16,389 nt of DNA, from NCBI GenBank assembly GCA_031288935.1, contig JAITQL010000173.1, positions 1 through 16,389 on the forward strand, written 5' to 3'. Positions 6,100 to 16,389 of the stretch are shown piece by piece (position 1 is the stretch's first letter; each line of letters begins with the position of its first letter). Origin of the DNA: Tannerella sp. (GTDB taxonomy: Bacteria; Bacteroidota; Bacteroidia; Bacteroidales; Tannerellaceae). The notes beneath the pieces were generated by a model that did not search any database, was not told the origin of the DNA, and saw only the letters and a list, made by a program, of their open reading frames with translations. Made by a program: the position numbers and the translations under genes.

Positions 6100-6680
6100 G
6101 CCTTTTTGATTTGTGCCGCCTCGTAACCGGCTTTCAGCGCTTTCAGGTTCAGTTCGACAATTTCATCGCCCTTGCGACCGAAAATCGAACGGATGCCTTC
6201 GGCTATTTTCCCGTACTCGATCCCGAGGAAGGGAACGGAAGCGCCCAGCATGACGATGTTGGCCGTTCGCAGCGAACCCGCTTCCCTTGCAATCGACTCC
6301 ACGTTCAGGGTAACGCAGTTGGGCAGCCTGGCCAGCTCCTCCGCAATCCGTTCCATGGCCGGATAGTTCGGAATGTTGACGTACGGCTGGATATTCGTTA
6401 CCAGCCAGCCCTCTTTCTTCAGGTAAGGCAGGTAGCGGAGGCTTTCCATCGGTTCCAGCGAGATGATCAGGCCGGCCTGTCCCAGCGGAATCAGGTCGGA
6501 GGCCACCGGCCTGTCCGACAGGCGGAGGTTGGACTGCACGTCGCCCCCGCGCTGGCTCATGCCGTGCACTTCGGACTGCTTCATGTATAACCCTTCTTTC
6601 AATGCGGCCTCGCCGATGACGGCGGCAATCGAAAGAATCCCCTGTCCGCCGACGCCCGATAAGATAATGTCTGTTTTCAT
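6096..6680 (-). CDS. iorB: Indolepyruvate ferredoxin oxidoreductase, beta subunit
   Basis: The 194-residue product is the gamma-type catalytic domain of the 2-oxoacid:ferredoxin oxidoreductase superfamily. With IorA it oxidatively decarboxylates indolepyruvate and other arylpyruvates to aryl-acyl-CoA, passing electrons to ferredoxin, in aromatic amino-acid breakdown (or the reverse under reducing conditions). The N-terminal GVGGQGILS (residues 9-17) and SEVHGMSQRGGDV are hallmarks of the family. The frame extends upstream inside iorA, but the ATG at 6680 overlaps the iorA stop as ATGA and begins with the conserved MKTDIILSGVGGQG, which fixes the start. Its own stop overlaps the tlpA-like start in the same way, so translation is probably coupled through the operon. 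Confidence 0.93.
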   Translation of the reverse strand: MKTDIILSGVGGQGILSIAAVIGEAALKEGLYMKQSEVHGMSQRGGDVQSNLRLSDRPVASDLIPLGQAGLIISLEPMESLRYLPYLKKEGWLVTNIQPYVNIPNYPAMERIAEELARLPNCVTLNVESIAREAGSLRTANIVMLGASVPFLGIEYGKIAEGIRSIFGRKGDEIVELNLKALKAGYEAAQIKKA

Positions 6681-8278
6681 TGCTGATTTGTTTTTTTCTT
6701 TTTTCTGCTTAAAGTCTGGATACATTCGCGACGGGGAATAATTACGGATACGCCCCGATAGTCGATCTCTTCCCGGATCACGGTTTTCATTTCCCCGTAA
6801 TTTTTCTTCAGGGGAACGAACGTGCGGATATGCTGCCTGTCCACGCCGATGCCTTCGCAGATGGCCTCGATGCGTCCCGTGCCCGCCGAGTCCTGTCCGC
6901 CGGTCATGGCCGTCGTTTCGTTGTCGGAAATGACAATCGTCACGTGACTGTTTTCGTTGACGCAATCCAGCAGGCCGGTCATGCCGGAGTGGGTAAAGGT
7001 GGAATCGCCAATCACGGCGATCGACGGATAGACGCCGGCGTCCGAAGCGCCCTTGGCCATCGTGATGGAGGCGCCCATGTCGATGCAGCTGTCAATGGCA
7101 TGAAACGGAGGCAGGGCGCCCAGCGTGTAGCACCCGATGTCGCTGAATACCTTCGGCGCTTCGTATTCCTTCAGCACTTCGTTCAGGGCTTCGTAAACAT
7201 CCCGGTGTCCGCAACCCTGGCACAGGGCAGGCGGGCGCTGCACCACCACTTCGGGGATCGCGTAGCCGGCGCGAATCTCCCGGCCCAGCGCTTCGCCGAC
7301 GAGATCGGGCGTCAGTTCGCCGTCGCGGCGGAGCGTGCCGTCCAGCCGTCCCCTGACCTTCCGCCCCGTGTCCAGAAGACCTTTCAACTGTCCCTCCACA
7401 ACCGGATAGCCTTCTTCAAAAACGATGATCTCCCCGCATTCGCCGGCCAGTTTCCGGATCCACCGGACGGGCAGGGGGTATTGACAGATCTTCAGTACGG
7501 GGTATTCGAATCCGTCCGGATAGTTTTCCGACAGGTAGTTGAACGCAATGCCGGTGGTGATGATCCCCTTCCGCTTGTCCGGAGCGTCAAAATAGCGGTT
7601 GTAGGCCGACGATTCGGAGAGCGCGGTCATGACGTCCTGCGCGGCCAGGAGTTTCTTGTAACGCTGACGCGCCAGCGCCGGCAGAAGGATGTAGCGTTGC
7701 CGGCCGTCGGCAGGACAGTTCACCGGCCGTTCGGGCAGGGGCGGCCGCAGGACGACGCCGGCGCGCGAGTGCGCCATGCGGGTCGTGATGCGCAGCAGGA
7801 CGGGATAGCCGGTTTGTTCGGACAGGTCGAATCCTTCGTACACCATGTCGTAGGCCTCCTGTTGACTGGACGGCTCCAGCACGGGCACCATCGCAAAATT
7901 GCCGTACACGCGGTTATCCTGTTCGTTCTGGGAGGAGTGCATCGAAGGGTCGTCGGCGGTGACGATGATCATGCCCCCGTGAATACCGCTCATGGCAGCG
8001 TTCATGAAGCAGTCTGCCGCCACGTTCAGCCCGACATGCTTCATGCAGCAGAGCGCCCGTTTACCGGCATAACTCATTCCCAGCGCCGCTTCCATGGCGG
8101 TCTTCTCGTTGGTGCACCAACGGCTGCGGATTCCCTTTTCCCGTGCGGTGACCGAATGTTGAATGTATTCGGTAATTTCCGTAGAAGGCGTCCCCGGATA
8201 GGAATATACGCCGGACAGACCCGCGTCGATAGCGGCCTGGGCAATGGCTTCGTCGCCCAAAAACAATCGTTGTTCCAT
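6677..8278 (-). CDS. iorA: Indolepyruvate ferredoxin oxidoreductase, alpha subunit, lacking the ferredoxin tail
   Basis: This is the thiamine-diphosphate subunit partnering IorB. The 533-residue product has an N-terminal pyrimidine-binding domain (FLGDEAIAQAAIDAG; SYPGTPSTE at 26-34), a middle domain, and a C-terminal TPP-binding domain with CQGCGHRD (353-360), DIGCYTLGALPP (380-391) and GDSTF...SDN (424-453). IorA of archaea and many bacteria ends in two 4Fe-4S ferredoxin-like motifs; here the protein stops soon after VIIPRRECIQT in a lysine-rich tail with no cysteine cluster. Shorter forms like this are, from memory, normal in Bacteroidota. An in-frame ATG at 8332 is rejected because the -7 box (8303-8310) lies downstream of it; 8278 gives MEQRLFLGDEA. 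It is the first gene of the iorA-iorB-tlpA operon. Confidence 0.93.
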   Translation of the reverse strand: MEQRLFLGDEAIAQAAIDAGLSGVYSYPGTPSTEITEYIQHSVTAREKGIRSRWCTNEKTAMEAALGMSYAGKRALCCMKHVGLNVAADCFMNAAMSGIHGGMIIVTADDPSMHSSQNEQDNRVYGNFAMVPVLEPSSQQEAYDMVYEGFDLSEQTGYPVLLRITTRMAHSRAGVVLRPPLPERPVNCPADGRQRYILLPALARQRYKKLLAAQDVMTALSESSAYNRYFDAPDKRKGIITTGIAFNYLSENYPDGFEYPVLKICQYPLPVRWIRKLAGECGEIIVFEEGYPVVEGQLKGLLDTGRKVRGRLDGTLRRDGELTPDLVGEALGREIRAGYAIPEVVVQRPPALCQGCGHRDVYEALNEVLKEYEAPKVFSDIGCYTLGALPPFHAIDSCIDMGASITMAKGASDAGVYPSIAVIGDSTFTHSGMTGLLDCVNENSHVTIVISDNETTAMTGGQDSAGTGRIEAICEGIGVDRQHIRTFVPLKKNYGEMKTVIREEIDYRGVSVIIPRRECIQTLSRKKKKTNQQ

Positions 8279-8302: not shown

Positions 8303-8333
8303 CAAAGATAAGAAGTAAAGTTCAAGATTCAAA
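8303..8333 (-). promoter_or_regulatory. iorA operon promoter: TTTG-N19-TATCTTTG
   Basis: On the minus strand TTTG (8330-8333) is followed after exactly 19 bp by TATCTTTG (8303-8310), a perfect Bacteroides-type promoter 24 bp before the iorA ATG. The -33 TTTG belongs to the adjoining TTCAA repeat tract. Confidence 0.75.
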
Positions 8334-8396
8334 AATTCAAAAATTCAAGGCTTCAAAAATTCAAGATTCAAGATTCAAGGATTCAAAGATTAATTC
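8321..8396. repeat. Degenerate TTCAA(A/G)-type short tandem repeats
   Basis: About nine copies of TTCAA followed by 2-3 A/G-rich bases run with a 7-8 bp period (TTCAAGA, TTCAAAAA and similar). Read on the minus strand they are TTGAATC/TTTGAA words, so several potential -33 TTG elements are stacked upstream of the iorA promoter. Similar tracts lie at 2474-2500, 9008-9037 and 16347-16380. Confidence 0.75.
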
Positions 8397-8413: not shown

Positions 8414-8448
8414 GTCCGGGTATTACCTGCCGGACGGAAACCGTTCCG
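8414..8448. other. Two small adjoining hairpins at the edge of the palindrome array
   Basis: GTCCGG (8414-8419) pairs perfectly with CCGGAC (8430-8435) across a 10-nt loop. Immediately next, sharing base 8435, CGGAA (8435-8439) pairs with TTCCG (8444-8448) across a tetraloop. They could be alternative or tandem structures. No T-run follows on either strand, so they are not typical terminators. Confidence 0.4.
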
Positions 8449-8453
8449 AAGGC

Positions 8454-8810
8454 GTTGCCCAGGCTTGGGCAGGCCGTCGGGAGCGTTTGGGGGCACTTGC
8501 CCAAGCTTGGGCAAGTCGGCCGGAGCGTTCGGAAGGGTTTGCCCAAGGTTGGGCAAGTCTGCCGGAGCGCCCGGAATCGCTTGCCCAAGGTTGGGCAAGT
8601 CGCCGGGAGCGCCCGAAATGCCTGTCCGGGGTTGGGCAAGTCGGCGAAAGCGCTCAAAATCGCTTGTTCAGGGTTGGGCAAGTCTGCCGGAGCGCTCAAA
8701 ATCGCTTGCCCAAGCTTGGGCAAGTCTGCCGGAACGCTCAAAATCGCTTGCCCGGGGTTGGGCAAGTCTGCCGGAGCGCTCTGGATCACTTGCCCAAGGT
8801 TGTACCGGCG
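8454..8810. repeat. Nine-unit 42-bp tandem array with a palindrome in each unit
   Basis: The anchor TTGGGCA (first unit 8465) recurs at 8507, 8549, 8591, 8632, 8674, 8716 and 8758, with a truncated ninth copy at 8800. Spacing is 42 bp throughout except one 41-bp step (8591 to 8632). Each unit is a palindromic half, consensus CTTGCCCAAGSTTGGGCAAG, plus a half like TCTGCCGGAGCGCTCAAAAT that itself contains GAGCGCTC. Units 2 (8496-8515) and 7 (8705-8724) are perfect 20-bp palindromes; unit 2 extends to 22 bp. The first and last units are most diverged. All forward frames and one reverse frame stay open because 42 is a multiple of three and the unit lacks stops, but the 41-bp unit shifts the frame, so coding is unlikely. 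The inter-palindrome segments are near-identical, unlike CRISPR spacers. Function unknown. Confidence 0.92.
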
Positions 8811-9007
8811 TGTGGACGGGGTTTTGCCGGCATATAAGGGGGCTGTGCAGCGGGGCTGGCCGTGAACATGTACAGTGAGATGGAAGGGAACGCCGCGCTC
8901 CGTCCCTGCAAACGCAGTAAAACAGTACAGCGATAGCATTGACTGTCCGTCCTGTTGCGGGAGATGACAGATTGGCAGAAACGATAACAGATGAACAGAG
9001 ATGATTT
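8811..9007. other. Intergenic DNA with no recognised gene
   Basis: Between the palindrome array and the hydrolase 3' end there is no convincing coding sequence. CCGGC (8805-8809) can pair with GCCGG (8826-8830) just past the last array unit. Open frames here are extensions of frames kept open by the array or shadows of the hydrolase. Confidence 0.5.
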
Positions 9008-9037
9008 TTGAATCGCTGAATCATTGAATCGCTGAAT
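9008..9037. repeat. Two 14-bp direct repeats at the hydrolase 3' end
   Basis: TTGAATCGCTGAAT occurs perfectly at 9008-9021 and 9024-9037, 16 bp apart. The second copy lies inside the hydrolase gene and encodes its last residues; the first lies beyond the stop. The word belongs to the TTGAATC family seen elsewhere in the window. Confidence 0.65.
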
Positions 9038-9917
9038 TTTCCGTATGGTTGCGTATAAATTCGGCCATAAGGATCATGGCCTTGTCGGTATCGGTCGAGG
9101 GGTAATATGTAAAGCCGTGGGCGGCGTTCGGGAAATCGTGCAGTACGACGGATACGCCTGCCTGTCTCAGCATTTCGGCATAGCGTACCCCTTCGTCGTG
9201 AAGGGAGTCGCGTCCGGCTACGATCAGCAGCGCCGGAGGCAGTCCGCCGAGCTGTTCCGGCGTGGCGAATACCGGCGAGACGCGGGGATCCTCCGCCTGT
9301 CGGGGATCGACGACGTAACAGGCATTGAAGAGGGTGGCCATTCGGGGAGAAACACAGCCTTTGGGCAGGGGTTTGAGATAGGCATCGGTAGCCAGGTCGA
9401 GCGGCGGATAGTCTAAGAGCTGGAAACGAAAGGAGAGATCGCCCCGTTCCTTTGCCATCATGCAGACTGCGGTGGCCAGATTCGCCCCGGCGGAATGACC
9501 GCCAATGCCGATTCGTCGAGCGTCGATGCCCCATTCCGCGGCGTGGGCAACGTAAAACCGTACGGTTTCACAGACCGCTTCCGGCGGGACGGGAAAGGGA
9601 TGCTCCGGCGCCTTGGGATAGTCGATACTGATGATTTTCACGCCGGTCTTTTCCCTTAGATACAGGTTCATGACCTCGTCCGCTTCGGCGTGCATCAGGA
9701 TAAAGCCTCCGCCGTGCATGTCTACGTAAAGAGGCTGCGGGGCGCTGTCCTCGAAACCGTACTCCAGCACCCTGACCGTGCCGCAAGCCGTTTCCACCTG
9801 CCGCAGGCCGTGCCGGTTCACACGCCTTCGCGTTTTGAGGCGCAGAAAAAAATTTGCGACCATACGTATCCTTTGTCCCTTCCTTGCAATTTGTTTTCGG
9901 GTCATCTGTCTTGCCAT
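9021..9917 (-). CDS. HSL-family alpha/beta hydrolase (esterase/lipase-like)
   Basis: The 298-residue product has every mark of the hormone-sensitive-lipase group (Abhydrolase_3): oxyanion motif HGGG at 68-71, nucleophile elbow GHSAGA with Ser142, acid Asp237 in AGRDSLHDEG and catalytic His267 in AAHGF. Such enzymes cleave short-chain esters; the physiological substrate cannot be deduced. The basic N-terminus followed by ANFFLRLKT is not a clear signal peptide, so a cytoplasmic location is likely. The frame is open to an ATG at 9974, but the -7 box (9945-9952) lies after it, so the ATG at 9917 is preferred; 9905 is an alternative. The last codons fall in a TTGAATC-type repeat, so the extreme C-terminus (SAIQ) may be a late addition. 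It is transcribed alone. Confidence 0.9.
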   Translation of the reverse strand: MARQMTRKQIARKGQRIRMVANFFLRLKTRRRVNRHGLRQVETACGTVRVLEYGFEDSAPQPLYVDMHGGGFILMHAEADEVMNLYLREKTGVKIISIDYPKAPEHPFPVPPEAVCETVRFYVAHAAEWGIDARRIGIGGHSAGANLATAVCMMAKERGDLSFRFQLLDYPPLDLATDAYLKPLPKGCVSPRMATLFNACYVVDPRQAEDPRVSPVFATPEQLGGLPPALLIVAGRDSLHDEGVRYAEMLRQAGVSVVLHDFPNAAHGFTYYPSTDTDKAMILMAEFIRNHTENSAIQ

Positions 9918-9944
9918 CCTCTTTTGAATTGTTTTATGAGCCTG

Positions 9945-9975
9945 CAAATATACGACAACCGGCCGGGATGGCAAG
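9945..9975 (-). promoter_or_regulatory. Hydrolase promoter: CTTG-N19-TATATTTG
   Basis: On the minus strand TATATTTG (9945-9952) is a full -7 match. CTTG at 9972-9975 sits exactly 19 bp upstream and matches the -33 TTTG in three of four positions. The element places the start at 9917. The remainder of 9976-10220 shows no gene. Confidence 0.65.
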
Positions 9976-16346: not shown

Positions 16347-16380
16347 GATTCAAAGATTCAAAATTCAAAGATTCAAAAAT
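16347..16380. repeat. GATTCAAA-type short tandem repeats
   Basis: Four tandem copies of a GATTCAAA/ATTCAAAA word follow the rhamnose-operon terminator and reach almost to the window edge. They belong to the same word family as 8321-8396. Confidence 0.7.
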
Positions 16381-16389
16381 TGAGTCCAC

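Follow-up and report, generated by a model that had tools for sequence, protein, structure and literature searches.

REP/BIME sequences, which are associated with RAYT transposases, are intergenic palindromes that sometimes occur in tandem, and iteron and partition-site arrays are phased binding sites of dimeric proteins. Satellites of 22/44 and 52 nt are reportedly the subject of a 2020 J Bacteriol paper by Subirana and Messeguer. Closest to the DNA described here are the non-coding satellites of Bacillus, whose sequence varies at a fixed size of 20-21 or 52 nt; in the portions of that report drawn upon here, it is noted that 20-21 nt corresponds to two helical turns, a polymerising protein or small RNAs are proposed, and the keeping of length without sequence is called enigmatic (PMC8161180). 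The terms 'palindrom' and 'bacteroid' are absent from the main text of PMC8161180. Among the satellite densities given in the part of PMC6749651 used here, which were obtained with a program other than TRF, the highest listed is 89 per Mb; in the relevant part of PMC8625621, transcription is described for the 52-nt satellites of Bacillus coagulans. The BrickBuilt MITE of Porphyromonas gingivalis is, in the sections considered, a single 23-nt sequence with 19 copies in one genome (PMC4596501).

The window, i.e., the whole stretch of 16,389 nucleotides of Tannerella sp. that was analysed, holds a tandem array of palindromes in front of an iorA-like gene. The features of this region are as follows.

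6677..8278, minus strand: iorA-like gene with POR_N and TPP-binding domains (Pfam; relatives in the genus), downstream of the array
8303..8333, minus strand: promoter-like site of iorA, TTTG-N19-TATCTTTG (pattern match)
8428..8451, no strand assigned: left end module (alignment and pattern search in 7 genomes)
8442..8802, no strand assigned: tandem array of nine 42-bp units, one of them 41 bp (TRF, unit alignment and dyad pairing per unit)
8442..8802, no strand assigned: consensus dyad of the array, CTTGCCCAAG|STTGGGCAAG (unit alignment)
8496..8515 (unit 2) and 8705-8724 (unit 7), no strand assigned: perfect 20-bp dyads (per-unit dyad pairing)
8803..8855, no strand assigned: right end module (alignment)
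9021..9974, minus strand: alpha/beta hydrolase gene, Abhydrolase_3 (Pfam), upstream neighbour of the array

The array was detected by TRF at 8442-8802 with a period of 42, 8.6 copies and a score of 272, and a second row gave an 84-bp unit over 8496-8802 (score 335); 100 random sequences of matched dinucleotide content reached a TRF score of 63 at most (period of at least 15). Dyad centres were placed after 8463, 8505, 8547, 8589, 8630, 8672, 8714, 8756, and 8798. The resulting steps of 42, 42, 42, 41, 42, 42, 42, and 42 reproduce the nine units of period 42, with one of 41, reported by the first-pass annotation, and they bear out its statement that the period equals about four helical turns with the palindromes in phase. 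Its further description, that most units carry a near-perfect palindrome, holds as to the presence of the dyads and was generous as to their quality: pairing is complete (10/10 positions) in two of the nine units, reaches at least 8 positions in four and at least 7 in six, and amounts to 5 or 6 in the other three. The right half-site TTGGGCAAG is intact in seven of the nine units (8454-8797) and the left one drifts, a one-sided decay of the dyad. As had been argued from the letters, the array is not CRISPR-like, for the whole unit repeats, the units are near-identical and unlike spacers are absent. A coding repeat was rejected, as the 41-bp step shifts the frame; furthermore, none of four ORFs through the array had a Pfam match at E ≤ 1e-3, and one ORF that was searched yielded 0 homologues at E ≤ 1e-3 among 1523 candidates, so that translation of the array as one conserved protein, a possibility named at the outset, finds no support. 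Rfam at gathering thresholds matched nothing in the window, and blastn against plasmids and phages gave no match at E ≤ 1e-5.

The array belongs to a small family with common end modules. A second contig of the same genome, C111, carries an array that is 86% identical and has matching ends, beside an FN3-gene-like fragment (by eye); this array starts at the contig end. A more diverged copy was found in another genome of the genus, G037, between nuo-like genes and a truncated signal-peptide gene (by eye). The left end module (8428..8451) showed zero mismatches to a degenerate pattern in both related arrays; the right one (8803..8855) has a similar counterpart in G037 (ATAAGGGGGCTGTGC...) and also on C111, up to the contig's end. 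Exact end-module matches were obtained at three places by pattern search of 7 genomes, and the two ends of the window element have in common only about GCCGG, in opposite orientation (by eye in the alignment). At E ≤ 1e-3, the window sequence was detected in 2 of the 41 genomes of the genus (own genome included), with two copies in the incomplete own genome, one in G037 and 0 in the other 39. These counts do not fit a BrickBuilt-like MITE, whose unit and end modules would recur in many copies of a genome. Both relatives (L013 421-840 on C111; L016 7790-8020 in G037) lie directly before gene-start-like sequence that is cut short, of FN3 type and signal-peptide type (by eye), as if the arrays marked breakpoints. 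The array on C111 is adjoined by a tandem repeat with an 89-bp unit (L013 900-1158; 2.9 copies, 97% alike), which includes the octamer microsatellite described below. When genome contigs were searched with the exact consensus pattern, two matched: one has a lone palindrome, and the other belongs to a Prevotellaceae MAG whose own 41-bp array closes with a unit that has the same core palindrome. A paired-palindrome pattern was rejected as a family probe since it matched the own genome alone among 393 genomes of the order; it is too strict because the sequence is not conserved.

The promoter-like site of iorA (8333-8303), which we liken to the Bacteroides-type promoter consensus, was found 109-121 bp from the array, in line with the box about 120 bp away that had been pointed out before. 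Octamer microsatellites of the GATTCAAA type lie between genes of the window at 8324-8391, 9009-9037, and 16347-16381, the first of which overlaps the promoter-like site (8303-8333); octamers like GATTCAAA also terminate close to contig sequence in L013 and L148. Strong iorA matches (E < 1e-100) were identified in 35 of the 41 genomes of the genus. Outside these stands the array-rich genome G003, whose iorA matches are distant only (28-30% identical). The Abhydrolase_3 gene was not found by tblastn in the stretches fetched around 29 other iorA loci. Thirty iorA loci were at hand, of which 27 were usable (at least 1 kb upstream). Arrays of period 21, 41 or 42 and a score of at least 100 lie before iorA at seven of these 27 loci (own included), and 0 arrays of that score were detected in front of iorA at the other 20. 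When the units from the seven sites were compared, one of the 21 pair scores was 11 (shuffle 99th percentile 10.96) and the rest were at most 8. Thus, the array length recurs at the iorA site and the sequence does not. The window array is not an iorA feature but a member of a genome-wide class.

This class was surveyed chiefly in G003, the sole single-contig genome among the 41, of which 600 kb was sampled; much of the evidence on the class accordingly comes from one genome. With a period of at least 15 and a score of at least 100, TRF reported 135 arrays, of which 95 fall in the period range 38-44 and 85 are of 41 or 42 (counts by period: 40, 7; 41, 42; 42, 43; 43, 2; 44, 1), and a minor class of 20-23 nt is present beside the main size. 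Three shuffles of the first 100 kb of G003 produced 0 arrays, as did 100 kb of E. coli K-12 at a score of at least 80. In a later 100 kb of G003, seven of nine arrays had a period of 41-43. All seven 100-kb blocks sampled contained arrays (7-20 each), which speaks against the suggestion that the array is a single partition site; the 102 arrays of period 38-44 in 700 kb extrapolate to hundreds per genome. In the own genome, eight contigs chosen by round numbers (67.5 kb) held eight arrays, i.e., five of 42, two of 21 and one of 40. Elsewhere, arrays of the 21/42 type with a score of at least 80 numbered three in 12 contigs of other genomes of the genus (135 kb), nine in 28 iorA loci (122 kb), nine in 13 genomes of other genera of the family (321 kb), and five in 20 genomes of other families (297 kb); in one set of 20 sampled stretches, four hold an earlier weak match, which makes the density not unbiased, and in another 20-stretch sample one stretch is 422 bases long. 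At a score of at least 100, 0 arrays were detected in 120 kb of G476 and 0 in 54 kb of G001. Draft genomes may misstate copy numbers, and their contigs may end within arrays. The phenomenon is spread over the order and is extreme in part of this genus, and the array is not peculiar to one strain, with neither palindrome nor period conserved elsewhere, the outcome that would have refuted the first-pass annotation, because period and palindromy recur in other genomes. Arrays were grouped by local alignment scores, as shared 9-mers had chained 90 of 101 into one group; of 3321 array pairs in G003, 145 scored at least 14 (shuffles 0.3%) and 54 at least 20, so the arrays are mostly unrelated with some families. 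G003 also has longer repeats (172, 216, and 378 bp), outside the 41/42 class, at L065 12276-13400, L075 8481-9091, and L075 15389-16309, which have in common the strong palindrome GGGGCGTATTGCATACGCCCC or a near form. In G028, two adjoining 23-bp arrays (L108 4041-4273) have unlike palindromes, CTTTGTAAGGTTACAAAG and GCATAAGGTTATGC.

The arrays were found to lie between genes irrespective of gene orientation. Among 118 G003 arrays of the 21/42/84/126 types, 111 had less than 20% of their length inside called genes and seven had at least 80% inside (crude caller); an earlier, looser ORF flag had marked 20 of 95 arrays as possibly coding. In the sampled G003 stretches, the gaps with arrays numbered 57 tandem, 15 convergent, and 16 divergent vs 134, 38, and 36 gaps of at least 100 bp, which is roughly 40% and a rate alike whatever the orientation. 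Avoidance of divergent gaps, expected of an intrinsic terminator or 3′-end hairpin element, was not observed, nor was avoidance of convergent gaps, expected of a promoter element.

Each array was reduced to units aligned to the array's consensus, and the symmetry axis scoring best over all units was taken. The mean best-axis score was 0.787 under Watson-Crick pairing vs 0.62-0.64 under three control pairing rules, and a dyad score of at least 0.85 was reached by 35 of 89 arrays vs 3, 0, and 0. When single consensus units were shuffled, 22 of 95 arrays were palindromic at P ≤ 0.01 and 36 at P ≤ 0.05. The result was repeated in six held-out arrays (score of at least 0.85 in two vs 0, 0, and 0; P 0.001-0.003) and in arrays outside G003 (8 of 19 vs 1, 1, and 1); in 30 arrays of 20-24 nt, palindromy was weaker (P 0.001-0.005). 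A second dyad was detected half a unit (about 21 bp) off the main axis, with a score of 0.525 vs 0.423 after the columns outside the main palindrome were shuffled (P 5e-12, 101 arrays) and with 12 of 101 arrays scoring at least 0.7 vs 0.6% expected. The 19 arrays outside G003, a subset of the 101, gave 0.526 vs 0.420 (P 0.0002); the six held-out arrays gave 0.471 vs 0.410, not significant (P 0.14), and the second dyad of the window's own array is weak and not significant by the half-unit score. Over the class as a whole, the 42-bp unit resembles a pair of unlike dyads set about 21 bp from each other, and this would connect it to the 21-bp arrays.

Variability among the units of an array also follows the distance from the dyad: it is small at 3-7 bp, rises at 9-13 and falls once more at 16-18. 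For the 60 most palindromic arrays it was 0.35 at 4-6 bp, 1.91 at 11-13, and 0.63 at 16-18 (16-18 vs 11-13, P 1e-7). The low value at 4-6 bp is partly built in, because the axis was selected on pairing across the units, a criterion that favours arms with little variation; the contrast of 11-13 with 16-18 bp is outside the positions used in choosing the axis. Under the control rules the dip at 16-18 bp was absent (smallest P 0.052, in the opposite direction), and under one of them the arms were slightly low (P 0.048). The 11-13/16-18 contrast recurs in the held-out arrays (P 0.03, n = 6) and outside G003 (P 0.0007, n = 19). Kinship among arrays inflates the P-values of the dyad-score, second-dyad, and constraint tests; the constraint pattern alone was redone with related arrays removed, and the contrast was retained (P 0.001-0.005; 22-50 arrays by threshold). 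In 18 arrays of 20-24 nt, variability at 4-6 bp was below that at 9-11 (P 0.015). Hypervariability of the dyad centre (0.175 vs 0.094 outside, 36 arrays) was not significant in a later test (P 0.17), and the autocorrelation of column variability, computed with no dyad alignment, was flat and showed no helical period. A half-site preference of T-8, C-5, and A-4 in 18 unrelated G003 arrays (uncorrected P 0.0007-0.003), not clearly repeated in the held-out arrays (4, 2, and 1 of 6, by eye), is a lead only. Fixed length, palindromy, the class-level second dyad, the shared constraint, and the intergenic, orientation-blind placement are thus established by calculation. Conserved blocks spaced by about one helical turn, in arrays of unrelated letters, agree with contacts along a single face of the DNA.

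The combination of a fixed length and a mirror-symmetric constraint with no shared sequence suggests that the cell may read one side of the helix at regular steps and no fixed word. Since an RNA role is less likely and RAYT is not required, a sequence-tolerant dimeric DNA-binding protein is favoured: tentatively, and with somewhat less than even confidence, we take the genome-wide intergenic satellites to be the binding lattice of such a putative protein, probably of the nucleoid type, with two helical turns per dimer. The first-pass annotation had proposed a dimeric or nucleoid-type protein as the binder, and this is supported here as a candidate reading. One dimer would bind each dyad and contact the helix some 4-6 bp away on both sides, in adjacent major grooves, and the next would follow about 21 bp (two turns) on, on the same face. 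Because dimers would stand about 21 bp apart on one face, the 21-bp arrays and the 41/42-bp arrays, with their two unlike dyads per unit, would form one lattice. Spacing and symmetry would be kept and the letters would drift between arrays; within an array, the letters would be alike because units are copied from each other. A protein as the reader, cooperative binding, and any effect on the nucleoid or on topology are inferred. Counting against the lattice are the low array density in most other sampled genomes of the genus, the half-site preference and the second dyad, which are not clearly borne out in the held-out arrays, the lack of a significant second dyad in the window's own array, the lack of excess in paired compensatory changes, and the flat autocorrelation. 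A wider version of the idea is rather doubtful: fixed-length satellites of 21, 42, and 52 nt (2, 4, and 5 turns) might all be chromatin-like tracks of a widespread face-assembling protein, and unit length would then be conserved and sequence not because such a protein would read dyad symmetry and helical phase and no fixed word.

The main rival to the lattice, which we regard as somewhat unlikely, is an amplifier, selfish or neutral, that would share this geometry. Copying would proceed in two- or four-turn steps wherever a dyad arises between genes, by slippage, a recombinase, or a hairpin-using enzyme; the conserved half-sites would reflect the amplifier's need, and the cell would gain nothing. 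Consistent with this are the high turnover at the iorA site (unrelated arrays at seven of 27 loci, none of score at least 100 at 20), the disregard of gene orientation, the great variation in density among genomes, and the movement of the window family with its end modules to other loci. However, the fixed 41-42-bp step and the common constraint over unrelated sequences would still require a factor that reads dyads, and several array-bearing genomes lack RAYT, which would be the obvious candidate. The RAYT domain PF01797 (Y1_Tnp) was detected in 17 of the 41 genomes of the genus, including G003, G012, and G037, and the search found it absent from the array-bearing G015, G017, and G034 and from the incomplete G000; the idea of a REP/BIME-like array spread by RAYT loses ground accordingly.

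An RNA role, in which transcription of the arrays would yield hairpin strings or small RNAs, is improbable. The strong folding of the window array on either strand (z-scores of -9.1 and -8.5), the four single transitions in its arms, all of which leave G.U on the plus strand, and the transcription of the Bacillus coagulans satellites as described in the part of PMC8625621 used here would agree with it. However, the strand-consistent tolerance of G.U that hairpins would show is absent from the class: over 67 arrays, 37 transitions give G.T and 31 A.C, with no per-array strand consistency (P 0.93). Nor were compensatory changes in excess, whether as covariation over all column pairs (1409 vs 1437, 1374, and 1324 under the control rules) or as paired changes on the axis (12 of 26 double changes vs 2/32, 16/37, and 11/36), and gene ends are not preferred, divergent gaps not being avoided. 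The same observations bear on the earlier proposal of tandem RNA hairpins.

Regulation of iorA by the window array, as an operator array or through copy number, is very improbable. The location just upstream of the promoter-like site agrees with it, yet most of the usable loci have no such array, those of the other six genomes with an array are unrelated in sequence, and both C111 and G037 have the window family beside different genes. An iorA-specific role, and the tuning by copy number that had been put forward, are not supported, given a class that occupies so many gaps of G003, a genome with no close iorA, and given unrelated arrays or none at the iorA site of other genomes. An artefact of assembly or detection can hardly be entertained, for although most genomes are drafts and the C111 array begins at a contig end, the densest set is from the single-contig G003, and shuffles and E. 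coli K-12 yield 0 arrays.

The kind of element, constant-size satellites of variable sequence, is already published, since PMC8161180 and PMC6749651 describe such satellites. As far as our searches show, the 41-42-nt class, the host group, the palindromy, the second dyad, and the constraint pattern are new; satellites of 41-42 nt, or dyads in them, were not found described for this order in the literature searched, supplementary tables being outside its scope. With dyads about 21 bp apart and kept bases about one turn apart, free between, the enigmatic conservation of length becomes a testable structural claim. The shared inner pattern could serve as bait for the reader protein, and G003 is the genome where the effect is extreme. 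Such a protein would be relevant to the question of how genomes could be shaped by nucleoid proteins that need no strict sequence motif.

Unlike iteron and partition-site arrays, the class occurs at hundreds of places per genome by extrapolation and not at one locus. Like REP/BIME, the arrays are intergenic palindromes in tandem; unlike REP/BIME, the class has no shared palindrome sequence. BrickBuilt, whose host order we take to be akin to that of the present genomes, is, as far as the account drawn on goes, likewise an intergenic tandem repeat with flanking end modules, and those of the window family are common to its three copies; the class here differs from it in its unrelated sequences and its unit of 41-42 bp. 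The last comparison is with the satellites of Subirana and Messeguer (PMC6749651 and PMC8161180). As in those satellites, short non-coding tandem arrays are numerous in a genome, have one length per genome and are unrelated in sequence, with some families. In contrast to the 20-21 and 52 nt given there, the main size is 41-42 nt, twice 20-21, with a minor class of 20-23 nt. The density in G003 is 225 per Mb (TRF, 600 kb) vs a highest listed value of 89 per Mb, obtained with another program (PMC6749651). To those satellites, as described there, the present arrays add palindromes, two dyads per unit, and a constraint common to unrelated sequences.
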